A stretch of 63,955 nucleotides of DNA from Bacilli bacterium (lineage in GTDB: Bacteria > Bacillota_I > Bacilli_A > RF39 > UBA660): contig JAEENX010000003.1 of the NCBI GenBank assembly GCA_016283935.1, positions 1-63,955 of the forward strand. Reading direction: 5' to 3'. Of the stretch, positions 4,641 to 63,955 are shown piece after piece; position 1 is the stretch's first letter, and each line of letters starts with the position of its first letter. Position numbers and translations under genes: made by a program. Under the pieces are notes generated by a model. That model saw only the letters and a program-made list of their open reading frames with translations. It searched no databases and had not been told where the DNA came from.

Positions 4641-4673
4641 TATGATATAATAAAAAAAGTAAGGAGAATAAAT

Positions 4674-5033
4674 ATGGATTATAAATTATTAAACGAATAT
4701 ACATATGAAATTAAGAAATCCAAATTTATTGGACTTATGTATCATGTTGAATCAAAAGAAGAAGTAAAAGATATATTAAATTATTTAAAGAAAGAACATA
4801 AAAAAGCAAGACATATACCCTATGCTTATAAAATTGGTTCTATAGCATCTAAATCAGATGATAAAGAACCAAATAATACAGCTGGTATGCCTATTTATAA
4901 TATTTTAGAAAATAAAAAATTAGAAAATACCTTAATAGTTGTAGTTCGTTATTTTGGTGGTACTAAATTAGGTGCAGGTGGTTTATTCAGAGCATATATG
5001 GAAGCAGCAAGAGGTGTTACAGATGAAGTATAA
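4674..5033 (+). CDS. YigZ/IMPACT-family protein, N-terminal domain only
   Basis: 119 residues matching the IMPACT (UPF0029) domain: RHIPYAYKIG, SDDKEPNNTAGMPIY and VVRYFGGTKLGAGGLFRAY. Bacterial YigZ proteins are usually about 200 residues, with a second ferredoxin-like domain (DUF1949) that is absent here. The reading frame stops cleanly at 5033, and the next gene starts inside it at 5023, so this looks like a natural short form rather than a recent break. Its role in bacteria is poorly known; eukaryotic IMPACT acts on GCN2 signalling. The ribosome site is AAGGAG. Confidence 0.85.
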   Translation: MDYKLLNEYTYEIKKSKFIGLMYHVESKEEVKDILNYLKKEHKKARHIPYAYKIGSIASKSDDKEPNNTAGMPIYNILENKKLENTLIVVVRYFGGTKLGAGGLFRAYMEAARGVTDEV

Positions 5034-30359: not shown

Positions 30360-30420
30360 ATATATACCCCTTCTTAGTGCCTAATATAATAGCACTATAA
30401 TTGGTTTTAGTCAAAAATAA

Positions 30421-30440
30421 AAGAAGCTTAAATTAAGCTT
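30421..30440 (-). terminator. Terminator of the small basic protein gene
   Basis: GAAGCTTAA and TTAAGCTTC pair around one central base. The TAA stop (30433-30435) is in the stem, and a T-rich run follows. Confidence 0.85.
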
Positions 30441-30579
30441 CTTTAGCTGCTTTTTTAGCTGCTTCTTTTTTCTTTTTAGCATCAAACATTTTTTTGTTGA
30501 TTAATTTAACTTTAACACCACGGTCATAAGCGAATTGTTTCTTAACTCCGTCTGGTAAATTCTTTTTATAAGTTCTCAC
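30433..30579 (-). CDS. Small basic protein with a GTG start
   Basis: 48 residues beginning MRTYKKNLPDGVKKQFAYDR and ending in a Lys/Ala-rich helix (AKKKKEAAKKAAKEA). The start is GTG at 30579 with AAAGGAG nine bases upstream. It is very basic, suggesting RNA, DNA or ribosome binding, but I do not recognise the family. It has its own terminator built into the last codons, which supports it being a real gene rather than chance. Confidence 0.7.
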   Translation of the reverse strand: MRTYKKNLPDGVKKQFAYDRGVKVKLINKKMFDAKKKKEAAKKAAKEA

Positions 30580-30645
30580 AGTTATTCACTCCTTTGCATT
30601 GCTGTTTAATTATAACAAATAATAAATATTTAATCAAGAAAAATA

Positions 30646-58357: not shown

Positions 58358-58383
58358 AAAAAAGTGTAATATAATTACACTTT
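58357..58383 (-). terminator. Terminator of the giant TelA-like gene
   Basis: AAAGTGTAAT (58361-58370) and ATTACACTTT (58374-58383), with T7. The TAA stop (58382-58384) overlaps the base of the stem. Confidence 0.9.
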
Positions 58384-61300
58384 ATTCTAATGTCTTCTTT
58401 TTGACATCTTCTTGTTCACCATTTAATAATTTTTTTGAATCATTAACAACATCTATATATTGATTAACACTTCTAGTCATATTATCTAATGCTATAGGAT
58501 CAAATCCTGTTACAGATTGAAGTTTATCTAATGTATCTAATGTTTCTTCTACATTTTGATTAACTACACTTTGTAATAGATCAACTAAATTTCTAGAAAT
58601 ATCTAATCCAATTGCATCTGTTTTACTACCTGCAATTAATGCAAATTCAGTTGCTATCATTGGTAAGATTGCTGAATTAGAAGTATTAAGAGCATCTATA
58701 GTAACAAAATGACTAATAATAGCTCTATGAACTTTAACTAATTCTTGTTTCATTACTACTATATTAGTATTAAAACTATTAATCTTTTTATCTAATATAT
58801 CTTGTAAATCTTTATAATCTAATAATTCAGTAAATGACTTCATATTGCCACTTGATTCAGCATTACTTAACTCTTCTACTCTAGCATCAACTAAAACTTT
58901 AAATTCTTTTAATCTTGTTAAGTATTCATCTGTTTTATATAAATATTCTTCAATATATCTTTTAATAATTTCATATCCTTTTAATTCATCATTTAAAGTT
59001 TGAACATTTTCAGATATTGCAGTTTTAATATTTGATATTGTACCTGCTTTTTCAGAATAATTATATTCAGTTTTTTTCTTCCTATTAAATAATGCAAATA
59101 TTCCTTTAGGTTCTTCTTCAGGTAGAACCATAACATCATTACATAATTTATTTATATCTTCAACTGAATGTTCTAATGAATCAGAGAATGCTAATTGTTG
59201 AAGTGCATCACTTATAACTGTAGAATGTTTAGATAATTCATTTCCATATAAAGAAACATCACTTATACTATCTGCTCTTAGAATTGGAATTATTTCTTTA
59301 GATAATAATTTAATTCCATCTTCAGGTGTTAATGGTCTAAATTTTTTATTAGTAGTTTCTTCTTTTAAATAATCATATCTATTTCCAGTTAAAGCTGTTA
59401 AAACTTCTAATACTTTAGAATCATTTATACTATCATCAAATACTCTACGTACTAAAGTATTATCATCTATTACATTATCTTTAATATATTTTTTATATTT
59501 TAATATTAGATTTCTATCATATTCTTTTTTTCTAATTTGTATTACTTCTTCTTTAGATATTCCTAATTGTTTTAATACTTCATCAAGAGTAATACCATTA
59601 TTTGAAAGATATTGTAAATAAGAATTATTACCATTTAATAATATTGCAATTATTATAGATGCTTCTTCAATATCATTTTCAGTTTCTATAATACCTTTAA
59701 AAGTATTAGCTTCAACTTTATTACTAAAATATGTATGAAATCTTAATATATCATCAAATATATTACTTACACATGCACATTGAATAAATAAATTATCTAC
59801 ATTTTCTTTTATTTTCTTTTGTTTAGACACTTCTTTATAAGCTTCAGATTCTTTTTTAGTATCTTTATAAACGTCTCTTGTAATATCTAAATTATATAAG
59901 AATTTATCTAATGCAAAATTAGTATTTAATTTAATAGCATTATCTAAGATAGTATATAAAGTAATATCTTTTTTATCTCTATCAAATATATATTTTTTAA
60001 ATACTTCTTCTACTGTAAAAATATCTATATCTTTTTCTTTATATACAATAGAGCCAAGATTTAATCCTTTTAATATATCTTTTTTAGATAATCCAATACT
60101 ATTTAAATATAAAGATAAACTTGAATCACATTGATGAGCAGCTAATATAATAGACATAGAAGCTAATACATCATTGCTTACAGGTGTTTTATATTGAGTT
60201 AATAATAAATAATATGAACAAATAGATTGAATATAATTATATGTATCTTTAGATAATCCTTGTAATAAAGATAGTTCTAATTCATTTCTATTCTTTTCTT
60301 TTTCTTTTTTATCTAGTTTATCTAATTCATCTTTAATAACTAAATTTTCAAAATTAACATCACGATTAATAGAACTTAATAATCTAGATAGAATATCTGA
60401 TTTTTCAAACTTCTTATCATATATAAAAGCATTAATATAATTAATAGTAATTTTATCTTTTGGTATATTAGCATATACATTATTTGAAATATATTTTTTT
60501 ACTATATTCATATCTCTATTAGTATATGTTTCTAATTTTGCATTACTAATTGGAACATTTAATAATGATTCTATTTTTTCTATAGTTAAACCAATTGCGC
60601 TCAAATATCTAGATAAATCATTTTCACATGTATACGAAGCTAATATAACAGATAAAGCTTCTATATCATCAGGAGTATCTACAATACTAGTATTTATAGT
60701 TCCTCCTTTATATTTATCTGATAAATATCTATGATATGTAGCAACTGTTTCCATATATTGATATACAGCTGGTTTTAATCCATTTAATATTTGATCTGCT
60801 GACATAGCATTATGAGATAAATCAAATTCTTTAATTAATACTATTAAATCATCAAAAGATTTAATGTTTGATTCTGATGATGAAAATAAAAATTTAAGAA
60901 TAATAGATTTATTAAGATCTTTGCTAAAAATATTATAGAACATATCTTCAGTAGAGTTCTTAGCATAATCTTTAACTATATTAATGAAGTTTCTATAAAT
61001 ATATAAAGAAGATCTATCAACACTTTCATCTGTAACATCAAAGTCAAATCCTAATACTTTTTTTATTTTATCAAGTGTAAGTCCTTTACTATTAAGGTAA
61101 TCAACAATCATATTAACAACATTATCATCTTTATATTCCATATTATAAAAATATAAAGCTACAAATAATGATAAATGAATAATACTTTTACGATCTTTTG
61201 GATAAGAATCATCAAGATTATCTTTATTAGTAAACATATAATCAAATAATTGTCCTACTATATCAAAATAATTAATCTTATCTACGTCAATGTTTTCATA

Positions 61301-61804
61301 TACTTTAGAAATAATTTCATTAAATTTTTCATCACAATTAGCTTTACCCATTTTTTCTAATTCTTTAATAAAATCGTCTATATCATTTTTTATAAATGCA
61401 GATGTTTTTATTACAGATACACCACTTAATTGTTCATATATATTAGTTACTATATTTTCAGGATAAATATCTAAATAATCATCATCATTATCATAAAAAT
61501 CAAATAACTCAATATACTTAGAAAAAACTTTTTCACTTTCTTCATCATAATAAAATTTAGCTTTAGAAACTCTTTCATTTGGAATATCAAAACCAATAGT
61601 ATGTAATTTATCTTGATATGCTCTAGATGATTCAGCAAGTGCTAATAAAGATTTAAAGAAATACTTATCATATTTTTGAATAATAGTAACATCATCTACT
61701 TCAATATCATCTGAATCTGCTAAATATTCTAAAAAATTATCTAAAAAATTAACAGTTTCTTTTGGCACTAAACTACAATACTTTTTATATGTCATTGTTT
61801 CCAT
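58382..61804 (-). CDS. Giant helical protein: Clp-N-like repeats plus TelA-like domain
   Basis: 1140 residues, soluble, Asp/Asn-rich. Three or four diverged repeats of about 200 residues can be aligned by eye around SVILASYTCENDLSRYLSAIG, SIILAAHQCDSSLSLYLNSIG and SIIIAILLNGNNSYLQYLSNNG, each followed by L-x-x-D/E and a short helix, the pattern of double Clp-N motifs. The last 350 residues (KGIFALFNRKKKTEYNYSEK, then a long helical run) resemble TelA, the toxic-anion-resistance/ter-associated family. The combination is unusual. It precedes the 58329 gene and has a GAGGGG ribosome site. Role unknown. Confidence 0.75.
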   Translation of the reverse strand: METMTYKKYCSLVPKETVNFLDNFLEYLADSDDIEVDDVTIIQKYDKYFFKSLLALAESSRAYQDKLHTIGFDIPNERVSKAKFYYDEESEKVFSKYIELFDFYDNDDDYLDIYPENIVTNIYEQLSGVSVIKTSAFIKNDIDDFIKELEKMGKANCDEKFNEIISKVYENIDVDKINYFDIVGQLFDYMFTNKDNLDDSYPKDRKSIIHLSLFVALYFYNMEYKDDNVVNMIVDYLNSKGLTLDKIKKVLGFDFDVTDESVDRSSLYIYRNFINIVKDYAKNSTEDMFYNIFSKDLNKSIILKFLFSSSESNIKSFDDLIVLIKEFDLSHNAMSADQILNGLKPAVYQYMETVATYHRYLSDKYKGGTINTSIVDTPDDIEALSVILASYTCENDLSRYLSAIGLTIEKIESLLNVPISNAKLETYTNRDMNIVKKYISNNVYANIPKDKITINYINAFIYDKKFEKSDILSRLLSSINRDVNFENLVIKDELDKLDKKEKEKNRNELELSLLQGLSKDTYNYIQSICSYYLLLTQYKTPVSNDVLASMSIILAAHQCDSSLSLYLNSIGLSKKDILKGLNLGSIVYKEKDIDIFTVEEVFKKYIFDRDKKDITLYTILDNAIKLNTNFALDKFLYNLDITRDVYKDTKKESEAYKEVSKQKKIKENVDNLFIQCACVSNIFDDILRFHTYFSNKVEANTFKGIIETENDIEEASIIIAILLNGNNSYLQYLSNNGITLDEVLKQLGISKEEVIQIRKKEYDRNLILKYKKYIKDNVIDDNTLVRRVFDDSINDSKVLEVLTALTGNRYDYLKEETTNKKFRPLTPEDGIKLLSKEIIPILRADSISDVSLYGNELSKHSTVISDALQQLAFSDSLEHSVEDINKLCNDVMVLPEEEPKGIFALFNRKKKTEYNYSEKAGTISNIKTAISENVQTLNDELKGYEIIKRYIEEYLYKTDEYLTRLKEFKVLVDARVEELSNAESSGNMKSFTELLDYKDLQDILDKKINSFNTNIVVMKQELVKVHRAIISHFVTIDALNTSNSAILPMIATEFALIAGSKTDAIGLDISRNLVDLLQSVVNQNVEETLDTLDKLQSVTGFDPIALDNMTRSVNQYIDVVNDSKKLLNGEQEDVKKKTLE

Positions 61805-61844: not shown

Positions 61845-61876
61845 CTAAAAAGAGGTCAAATAATTTGACCTCTTAA
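61845..61876 (-). terminator. Terminator of the queuosine-precursor transporter gene
   Basis: AAGAGGTCAAA and TTTGACCTCTT form an 11-bp stem around 3-4 bases. The gene stop (61873) is in the stem. Confidence 0.88.
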
Positions 61877-62538
61877 TTAAGCTTTTTACTTATATAAATA
61901 AATGGTGTATCAAATAAAGCTATTACTATTTCAACAACAGATATTGTAGTAGCAATATTTAACATAGTTGGAATATCATATATTCCTATAAATGCAAAGA
62001 AAATAAAGAAATAATTTTCTAATACATTAGATATCATTGTAGCAACATTATTTCTTAACCATAACATATTTGGAAATTTCTTTTTAAGTTTTTCAAATAT
62101 AAATATATCTAAGTTATTACTTATAAAGAACATAACTATACTTGATAAACTTATTCTTAAGTTTAATCCAAATAATGTAGTCATTGCATCATGTGCAAAA
62201 TCAGTTTCATCTGGAGTAAATAATAAACCTATTTGCATAACTGCAGTAAATGCAATCATTGCAAATACAGCTATTTTAATAGCTTTTTTACTATATTCAG
62301 CACCATATTTTTCACTCATAATATCAGTAGCTAAAAATACAGATGCAAATAATACATTTCCACATGTAGAAGTAAAACCATTAAATAAACCAACAGTTTG
62401 ACATTCTAATATATTTGCTGTTATTAAAGCAATAGCTGCCCAAACAAATAAACCTTCCTTTTTAAATATTTTTTCTATTAATATTACAATACTAAAAGTA
62501 ACAATAATATTAATAAAAATTAATAACACATTATTCAT
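61873..62538 (-). CDS. Queuosine precursor transporter (YhhQ/VUT family)
   Basis: 221 residues with about six membrane helices. Family features include VWAAIALITANILECQTVGLFNG, FASVFLATDIMSEKYG (the D-x-x-SE-x-YG motif) and ISNNLDIFIFEKLKKK with WLRNNVATMISNVLENYFF. YhhQ proteins import preQ0 or preQ1 for queuosine tRNA modification. The preQ1-I riboswitch directly ahead makes preQ1 (or a relative) the likely cargo. The AAGGAG ribosome site lies just after the aptamer. Confidence 0.92.
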   Translation of the reverse strand: MNNVLLIFINIIVTFSIVILIEKIFKKEGLFVWAAIALITANILECQTVGLFNGFTSTCGNVLFASVFLATDIMSEKYGAEYSKKAIKIAVFAMIAFTAVMQIGLLFTPDETDFAHDAMTTLFGLNLRISLSSIVMFFISNNLDIFIFEKLKKKFPNMLWLRNNVATMISNVLENYFFIFFAFIGIYDIPTMLNIATTISVVEIVIALFDTPFIYISKKLN

Positions 62539-62544
62539 AAATAA

Positions 62545-62588
62545 TCTCCTTCCCTTTTTTATACTAGGCTGTGTAGGATAACTAGTAC
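62545..62588 (-). promoter_or_regulatory. preQ1-I riboswitch (translation control likely)
   Basis: P1 is TACTAG (62582-62587) with CTAGTA (62562-62567). The loop carries ATCCTACACAG, similar to the CUACAC loop of known preQ1-I aptamers, and an A-rich ATAAAAAA follows P1. The CC in the loop can pair with GG of GGGAAGGAG, putting the pseudoknot over the Shine-Dalgarno, so ligand would repress translation of the transporter. No downstream terminator is present. The class is inferred from recalled consensus. Confidence 0.82.
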
Positions 62589-62611
62589 GTTTTTAATAAT
62601 ATATTATTTAA

Positions 62612-62645
62612 TAAAAAAAGTCTAGTATTTACTAGACTCTTTTTT
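62612..62645. terminator. Strong bidirectional terminator of the RNA unit
   Basis: AGTCTAGT and ACTAGACT around ATTT (62619-62638), with T7 on the minus side and T7 on the plus side. Confidence 0.92.
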
Positions 62646-62980
62646 GTGGATTATATTCTTGAATTTTAAATACTTCATAATATATAGAATAACATGCGTT
62701 GTTAAATGGGACATTTTTTTAATTAAACGACATTATTAGTTTTTTTATTCTAACGAATAATCACTTATGGTCTTACTCCCTTTTATCGCTTCATCTTATT
62801 TTTAATCACGATTATTAGATTCAGCAAAATTTATTTTATTCGTAAGAATTATTCATGTTATTTCTATACATAAACAACAAATATAAGGGCGATTTTTACG
62901 AAAGTAAATGTTAAATTCAAAAAGATCTTTCCACTTTCCTATAAACTAAACTCAAACTCTCTCCTTTTTTAGTTTATGAA
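62612..62980 (-). ncRNA. Candidate structured non-coding RNA, class unknown
   Basis: About 370 bases with no plausible gene, but with a consensus promoter and a strong terminator. On the minus strand the 5' end TTCATAA (62974-62980) can pair with TTATGAA near the 3' end; with three to four more upstream bases the match is 11 bp including one G-U. Local hairpins are clear: ATAAACTAAA/TTTAGTTTAT (62941-62977), TTTAC-TTTC-GTAAA, TTATTC-GTTA-GAATAA and TAATC-GT-GATTA. I looked for RNase P, tmRNA, SRP and 6S hallmarks and did not find them. It is not obviously a decayed gene. Confidence 0.6.
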
Positions 62981-62984
62981 GCAT

Positions 62985-63012
62985 ATTTTATACCAAAAAT
63001 CACAAATGTCAA
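62985..63012 (-). promoter_or_regulatory. Consensus promoter of the RNA unit
   Basis: TTGACA (63007-63012), 16-base spacer, TAAAAT (62985-62990) on the minus strand. This is one of the few exact TTGACA boxes seen in the window. Confidence 0.8.
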
Positions 63013-63022
63013 TACTAAAATG

Positions 63023-63046
63023 AAAAGAAGACTAATTAGTCTTCTT
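63023..63046 (-). terminator. Terminator of the 63045 gene
   Basis: AAGAAGACTAA and TTAGTCTTCTT form a perfect palindrome overlapping the stop (63045), followed by TTTTCATTTT (minus strand). Confidence 0.85.
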
Positions 63047-63275
63047 ATACCCATTCATCTTCGTCTTCTTCAGGATCTATGAAATCATCTTCTCCATAGT
63101 AGTCATCATCTTCTACTTCCATATCAGGATCATCTTCAAAAGATGTTTCATCCCATCCTTCTTCTCTAACTAATCTAGCTTCTTCATCAGATAAACCTAA
63201 ATTCTTTAATCTCTTAATTTCTTTTTCTTCTTTATCATTTTTTGATGTATCAAATAATCCACTAAAAATACCCAT
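63045..63275 (-). CDS. Small acidic protein
   Basis: 76 residues, begins MGIFSGLFDTSKNDKEEKEI. A short helix (KEIKRLKNLGLSDEEARLVRE) is followed by a strongly acidic tail (EDDPDMEVEDDDYYGEDD). Function unknown; the charge suggests a binding or disordered segment. It starts 15 bases after the sortase stop and has an ATAGGAGA ribosome site, so it is probably co-transcribed with the sortase gene. Confidence 0.75.
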   Translation of the reverse strand: MGIFSGLFDTSKNDKEEKEIKRLKNLGLSDEEARLVREEGWDETSFEDDPDMEVEDDDYYGEDDFIDPEEDEDEWV

Positions 63276-63289
63276 ATAAACTCATTCTC

Positions 63290-63955
63290 CTATTCTTTTA
63301 TTCTTACAGCTTGTACAACTAATCTTTTATTACCAGTATAACCTTGACAAGTTGATAATGTTATAATTGAATCTTTTTCTCCAACATCTACATTAAAATT
63401 ATATATAGATCTACTCTTCATCTTTTTAATAAATTCTTTCCATTCTTTCTTATTCTTAAAAACAGTAGTTATATAGTAATCTTCTGCTTCTATAGTATAT
63501 ACAGAAAACAATTTATATTTATATGTACCTTCAGGTGTAACAAATGTCATCACTTGATTTTCTTCTTTTTGATAATTCTTATCATTTAATATTTTATGTA
63601 ATGAACCAAACATAGAACCATTTTTCATACTATGTCCAAACAACACTATATTTTTATCAGTTCCATCAAAGTTATTTCTATAATCAGCAAATATCCAACC
63701 TGCTTCATTAGATTTTTTACTAAAGTTATGATTTAGATAATAATCATTATCTTTACCTTTAACAACAACATAACTAATATTAAATTGTTTATAATCTAAA
63801 TATGCTACAGTATCATTATTAATTTCTTTTAAAGCATTAAAATCTACATAGAATACAGGATTTCCTGTATCATCTACTTCTTCTTTAACTTTATCACTTA
63901 AATCTTCTTGTATATCTTCATTTTCGTTTAAATACTTATTCCAATTATATATTTT
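63290..63955 (-). CDS. srtB: Class B sortase, N-terminus beyond the window
   Basis: 221 residues visible; the frame stays open to the right edge, so the N-terminus and membrane anchor are missing. Family pattern: VFYVDFNALKEINNDTVAYL, YVVVKGKDNDYYLNHNF, AGWIFADYRNNFDG, catalytic His in VLFGHSMKNGSMFGSL, catalytic Cys in ITLSTCQGY and Arg in NKRLVVQA. Class B sortases anchor a restricted set of proteins to peptidoglycan via NPxTN-like signals, or assemble pili. No sorting-signal protein is seen in this window. In-frame GTG or ATG codons inside are not starts. Confidence 0.93.
   Translation of the reverse strand, partial: KIYNWNKYLNENEDIQEDLSDKVKEEVDDTGNPVFYVDFNALKEINNDTVAYLDYKQFNISYVVVKGKDNDYYLNHNFSKKSNEAGWIFADYRNNFDGTDKNIVLFGHSMKNGSMFGSLHKILNDKNYQKEENQVMTFVTPEGTYKYKLFSVYTIEAEDYYITTVFKNKKEWKEFIKKMKSRSIYNFNVDVGEKDSIITLSTCQGYTGNKRLVVQAVRIKE

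Follow-up and report, generated by a model that had tools for sequence, protein, structure and literature searches.

The window analysed here, a stretch of 63,955 nt, is contig C27 of a 1.29-Mb genome, the closest named relatives of which are metagenome assemblies recorded as Bacillales, Bacilli or Tenericutes bacterium. At one end of the window, a sortase gene and a small acidic-protein gene form a pair, followed on the same strand by a gene for a Vut_1 transporter of the yhhQ/queuosine precursor transporter type (Table 1). The 506 bases between the acidic-protein and transporter genes (62539-63044) are the sole non-coding gap of more than 300 bases in the window, in agreement with the initial annotation, which had read this stretch as an independent transcription unit for a structured RNA; the apparent gaps at 4641-4971 and 30360-30645 both score as coding and were set aside. 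The stretch is present in a single copy in the genome, and we therefore rejected the idea that it is a repeat or mobile element.

The product of the acidic-protein gene (76 aa, very acidic) has no Pfam match, and the gene is kept in a few members of the genus. In two of these members it lies between genes that, judged by eye, are phosphotyrosine-phosphatase-like and diacylglycerol-kinase-like, rather than after a sortase gene. Beyond the transporter gene, 58382-61804 (minus strand) encodes an 1140-aa protein, for which Pfam likewise gives no match and in which a motif resembling YMETVATYHRYLS/YIQSICSYYLLLT appears to be repeated internally.

Table 1. Genes and sequence features in and around the 506-base gap
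Feature	Position	Strand	Remarks
Vut_1 transporter gene	61873-62538	minus	PF02592; downstream neighbour
Conserved leader of the Vut_1 gene	62543-62584	minus	TACTAGTTAWCCTACACAKCCTAGTATAAAAAAGGGAAGGAG; preQ1-I-like pseudoknot predicted; adjoins the stretch but lies outside it
Intrinsic terminator hairpin	62612-62645	minus	7-T tail; bidirectional
Body of the putative transcript	62646-62978	minus	no homologue or coding signal; folding energy ordinary
12-codon TTG frame	62917-62955	minus	TTG AGT TTA ... TTT TGA, 5 nt past AAAGGAG; may encode a leader peptide or mark where a decayed gene began
5' hairpin	62941-62977	minus	ATAAACTAAA/TTTAGTTTAT, 10 bp; Shine-Dalgarno-like AAAGGAG in loop (62967-62961)
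Sigma-70-type promoter	62985-63012	minus	TTGACA-16-TAAAAT, 11/12 consensus match; expected start ~62978
Terminator hairpin of the acidic-protein gene	63025-63046	minus	weaker; weak U-tract (TTCATTTTAG)
Small acidic-protein gene	63045-63275	minus	upstream neighbour
Sortase gene	63290-63955	minus	paired with the acidic-protein gene

Transcription signals, folding and coding content

The transcription signals described in the initial annotation are all in place: the near-consensus promoter, the strong terminator, which can be read both ways, and the weaker terminator of the preceding gene. A promoter site as good as this one occurs in 2.4% of dinucleotide shuffles of the region, and terminator-like sites are enriched (three observed, 0.2 expected). 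Thus, an independent transcription unit on the minus strand is plausible from these consensus matches, with a promoter and an intrinsic terminator on one strand and apart from those of the neighbours. RNA polymerase would probably start near 62978 and stop near 62612, yielding an RNA of ~365 nt. A 26-codon frame for a hydrophobic peptide (MGIRRLISLLFILVLTFVIFGIKYAS, 62974-63054, minus strand), with an ATG that overlaps the stop codon of the acidic-protein gene, runs through the weaker terminator and the promoter; it is probably due to chance.

Structure within this putative RNA did not bear out the initial reading. The stretch including its terminator folds with z = -4.3 relative to shuffles, but without the terminator the values fall to -1.9, -2.4 and -1.2 for three bodies with slightly different ends, and 20 equal-length coding-strand pieces of the window range from -3.85 to +0.5, with 7 of the 20 at -1.2 or below. 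The fold signal is owed mostly to the terminator, and the body is not more stable than ordinary sequence of this genome; more generally, a fold score of z -4 can come largely from a terminator. As controls, we folded this genome's RNase P RNA and tmRNA (z -2.1 and -3.0). With even RNase P RNA scoring no lower than -2.1, z by itself discriminates poorly, and more weight falls on the missing homologues described below.

Individual helices were similarly modest. The longest inverted repeat is 10 bp, compared to a shuffle mean of 9.1. The proposed pairing of the two ends (TTCATAA/TTATGAA, up to 11 bp) amounts to 8 perfect bp within the body, a value equalled by 8.8% of shuffles; this closing stem is within chance. 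Among the internal hairpins noted initially, the 10-bp hairpin at the 5' end is indeed present, but exceeds chance only weakly or not at all, a local hairpin of this length being found in 4% of shuffles.

The base composition of the stretch is intermediate. Its G+C content (23.9%) is above that of true intergenic DNA (18.5%; p 0.03) and below that of genes, and its strand purine content (56%) lies between those of intergenic DNA (53%) and genes (58%). By comparison, the RNase P RNA and tmRNA of this genome have 44% and 36% G+C.

We found no trace of a recognizable protein. The codon-usage signal, with frameshifts allowed, is 4.8, whereas coding pieces average ~50 and shuffles 5.7, and a Pfam search of all six frames (with X at stops) yielded no family, its one match (E 0.22) being below the cut-off. 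Old decay would wipe out a codon-usage signal.

Homologue searches and the same slot in relatives

Searches for relatives of the stretch itself gave nothing. With the covariance models of Rfam 15 there was no match at the gathering cut-off, and only trivial hairpins up to E = 10. By BLASTN, which we also ran in a 60-genome set, the remaining 10 genus members yielded no homologue, and neither did samples of 386 genomes from the family and 385 from the order; the best foreign matches (1e-4 to 1e-6) are AT-rich pieces of 26-40 nt, mostly within unrelated open reading frames. Phages and plasmids likewise yielded no homologue, and exact searches of viral contigs with three 20-21-mers from the region gave no match. 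Thus, no collection searched supplied a homologue in which base pairs could covary. The initial annotation had seen no hallmarks of RNase P RNA, tmRNA, SRP RNA or 6S RNA, consistent with the Rfam result, and RNase P RNA (272 bits) and tmRNA (129 bits) do sit elsewhere in the genome, such that this locus need not supply either; 6S RNA was not found in the genome. It had also called the stretch the best candidate for an undescribed element and had named lack of conservation in relatives as evidence to the contrary. With no conservation in the genus or in the family and order samples, no surplus structure once the terminator is left out, a G+C content of 24% and no Rfam match, we dropped that proposal: a conserved or unusually structured RNA is not supported.

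We compared the same slot in other genomes. In the nearest syntenic relative (L051, the same as L032), the yhhQ-type gene is 92% identical to that of the window, the acidic protein 63% and the sortase 70%, and the slot between the acidic-protein and transporter genes (G009:C28, 3603-6557) holds a gene for a 543-aa helix-turn-helix protein and thyX, both of which have a terminator of their own. Other relatives have yet different DNA before the transporter gene, and in no relative are the 400 bases upstream related to those of the window. Thus, this slot is a place of gene turnover. thyX is found in just 3 of the 11 genomes of the genus, and the window's genome has no match to the thyX of L051; its loss here or its gain in the relative may each be the explanation. 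Alignment of the stretch to the relative's thyX and helix-turn-helix genes was no better than that of shuffles in what is a blunt test with lenient gap penalties. We did not count a likeness that covers the thyX terminator together with the 30 bases preceding it, as palindromic terminators match on both strands.

Origin of the stretch

We favor, at about even confidence, the interpretation that the stretch is an orphan, genome-specific transcription unit in this slot, most likely the relic of a lost or replaced gene. A gene may have been lost or replaced here, leaving behind its promoter, a ribosome-binding-site-like motif and its terminator; the RNA would lack sequence conservation and clear coding content, its structure would be like that of other stretches of this AT-rich genome, and its sole likely effect at present would be to insulate the sortase operon from the yhhQ-type gene. 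Several observations are consistent with a relic as the most likely origin: the stretch has no homologue in the genomes, phages and plasmids searched; a gene-like start is kept, with AAAGGAG ~11 nt past the expected transcription start; the slot holds genes in L051, and the window's genome lacks the thyX of L051; and the G+C and purine contents lie between those of intergenic DNA and genes. Orphan intergenic transcripts and pseudogene relics occur in reduced AT-rich genomes, and the stretch resembles these in its own promoter and terminator, its lack of a conserved frame, its restriction to one species and the occupation of the slot by genes in a relative. Unlike in typical pseudogene relics, however, the lost gene is not recognizable: no thyX, helix-turn-helix or Pfam remnant appears in six frames and there is no codon-usage signal, and thus the lost gene cannot be named. 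Furthermore, the slightly raised G+C and the good promoter-terminator pair would also suit a functional RNA.

Indeed, it is possible, although we hold it only tentatively, that the stretch encodes a lineage-specific non-coding RNA of ~365 nt that acts in trans by base pairing, with its 5' hairpin and AGGAGAGAG loop exposed. Young sRNAs commonly have no homologues outside their species. As in bacterial trans-acting sRNAs generally, the unit is free-standing and ends in an intrinsic terminator; moreover, a codon signal is absent, G+C and purine content are slightly above those of spacer DNA, and the 5' hairpin is of a length reached by few shuffles. On the other hand, the body folds as equal-length coding pieces do, its G+C is far below that of the genome's RNase P RNA and tmRNA, no homologue was found even within the genus, and the stretch is longer than most such sRNAs and has no conserved part. 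The specific version in which a young, species-specific regulatory RNA was born in the gene-turnover slot, with the 5' hairpin exposing the AGGAGAGAG loop, we consider unlikely; if the RNA does work, it would be an example of new RNA birth in such a slot. The stretch itself carries little weight, beyond illustrating that in an AT-rich genome an RNA gene can be mimicked by a promoter-terminator pair.

Two further explanations take the transcript to be an mRNA or part of one. If it were a short mRNA, AAAGGAG and the TTG codon would yield a peptide of 12 residues (MSLVYRKVERSF), or a different small ORF would be translated. The Shine-Dalgarno-like site, which precedes the TTG by 5 nt and comes shortly after the expected transcription start, fits such an mRNA, but the frame has just 12 codons, followed by ~300 nt without a long frame or codon signal, it has no relatives, and the Shine-Dalgarno-like site lies inside the loop of the 5' hairpin; we regard this as improbable. 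Still more improbable is a long attenuated leader of the yhhQ-type gene, with read-through into 62538 when the terminator is blocked. The gene does lie directly downstream on the same strand, and the terminator ends 27 nt ahead of the conserved 42-nt leader of that gene. However, relatives usually have a promoter right before the conserved leader (by eye, TTGATT-17-TATAAT in L032), the window retains a weaker one (TAGACT-17-TATTAT at 62624-62596), and no relative shares the DNA farther upstream.

A diverged housekeeping RNA (RNase P RNA, tmRNA or 6S RNA) or a retron, CRISPR or toxin-antitoxin RNA is largely refuted and has hardly any likelihood left: a length of ~365 nt, similar to that of RNase P RNA type B (RF00011) and tmRNA (RF00023), the end pairing and the failure to find 6S RNA in the genome speak for it, but the covariance models give trivial hairpins alone, RF00011 and RF00023 are both accounted for elsewhere in the genome at far higher G+C, 6S RNA (~190 nt) is about half the length of the stretch, the stretch is single copy, and its neighbours (Vut_1 transporter, acidic protein and sortase) include no typical partner.

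A preQ1-I-like leader next door

The more useful lead is the adjoining leader: it is probably a preQ1-type riboswitch, from an uncultured lineage of Bacilli, that escapes the Rfam models. It occupies 62584-62543, immediately upstream of the Vut_1 gene, with the sequence TACTAGTTATCCTACACAGCCTAGTATAAAAAAGGGAAGGAG, and this 42-nt leader occurs with two or fewer differences before the transporter gene in L032, L033, L034/L041, L035, L038 and L042. It is near-identical in seven species, although the transporter proteins differ by up to 43%; in L042, the transporter is just 57% identical to that of the window, yet the leader is kept. The surrounding DNA cannot otherwise be aligned, and conservation of this kind suggests selection on the leader.

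The layout of the leader suggests a ligand-binding pseudoknot. A stem P1 (UACUAG/CUAGUA) could form, in which a G ends the 5' strand and is followed by UU and a C stands just before the 3' strand; an A-rich tail follows, and CCU in the loop can pair with AGG in the tail beside the ribosome-binding site (H-type pseudoknot). This last pairing resembles that of the Escherichia coli type III preQ1-I riboswitch of yhhQ, in which C9-C10-U11 pair with A28-G29-G30 (PMC10622847), and the G, the UU and the C correspond to G5, UU and the specificity C of class I preQ1 riboswitches (PMC11625349). In contrast to type III, the leader has a loop of 14 nt, instead of a short, pyrimidine-rich one, has UC or GC, and not AC, before the 3' strand, and belongs to Bacilli, not Pseudomonadota. 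The Rfam preQ1 models give no match to it. We infer that the leader is probably an unlisted preQ1-I riboswitch variant of this Bacilli lineage. In L036, in which the transporter is 62% identical, the leader differs, but by eye the same layout is possible, with P1 as UGUAG/CUACA and P2 as UCAU/AUGA.
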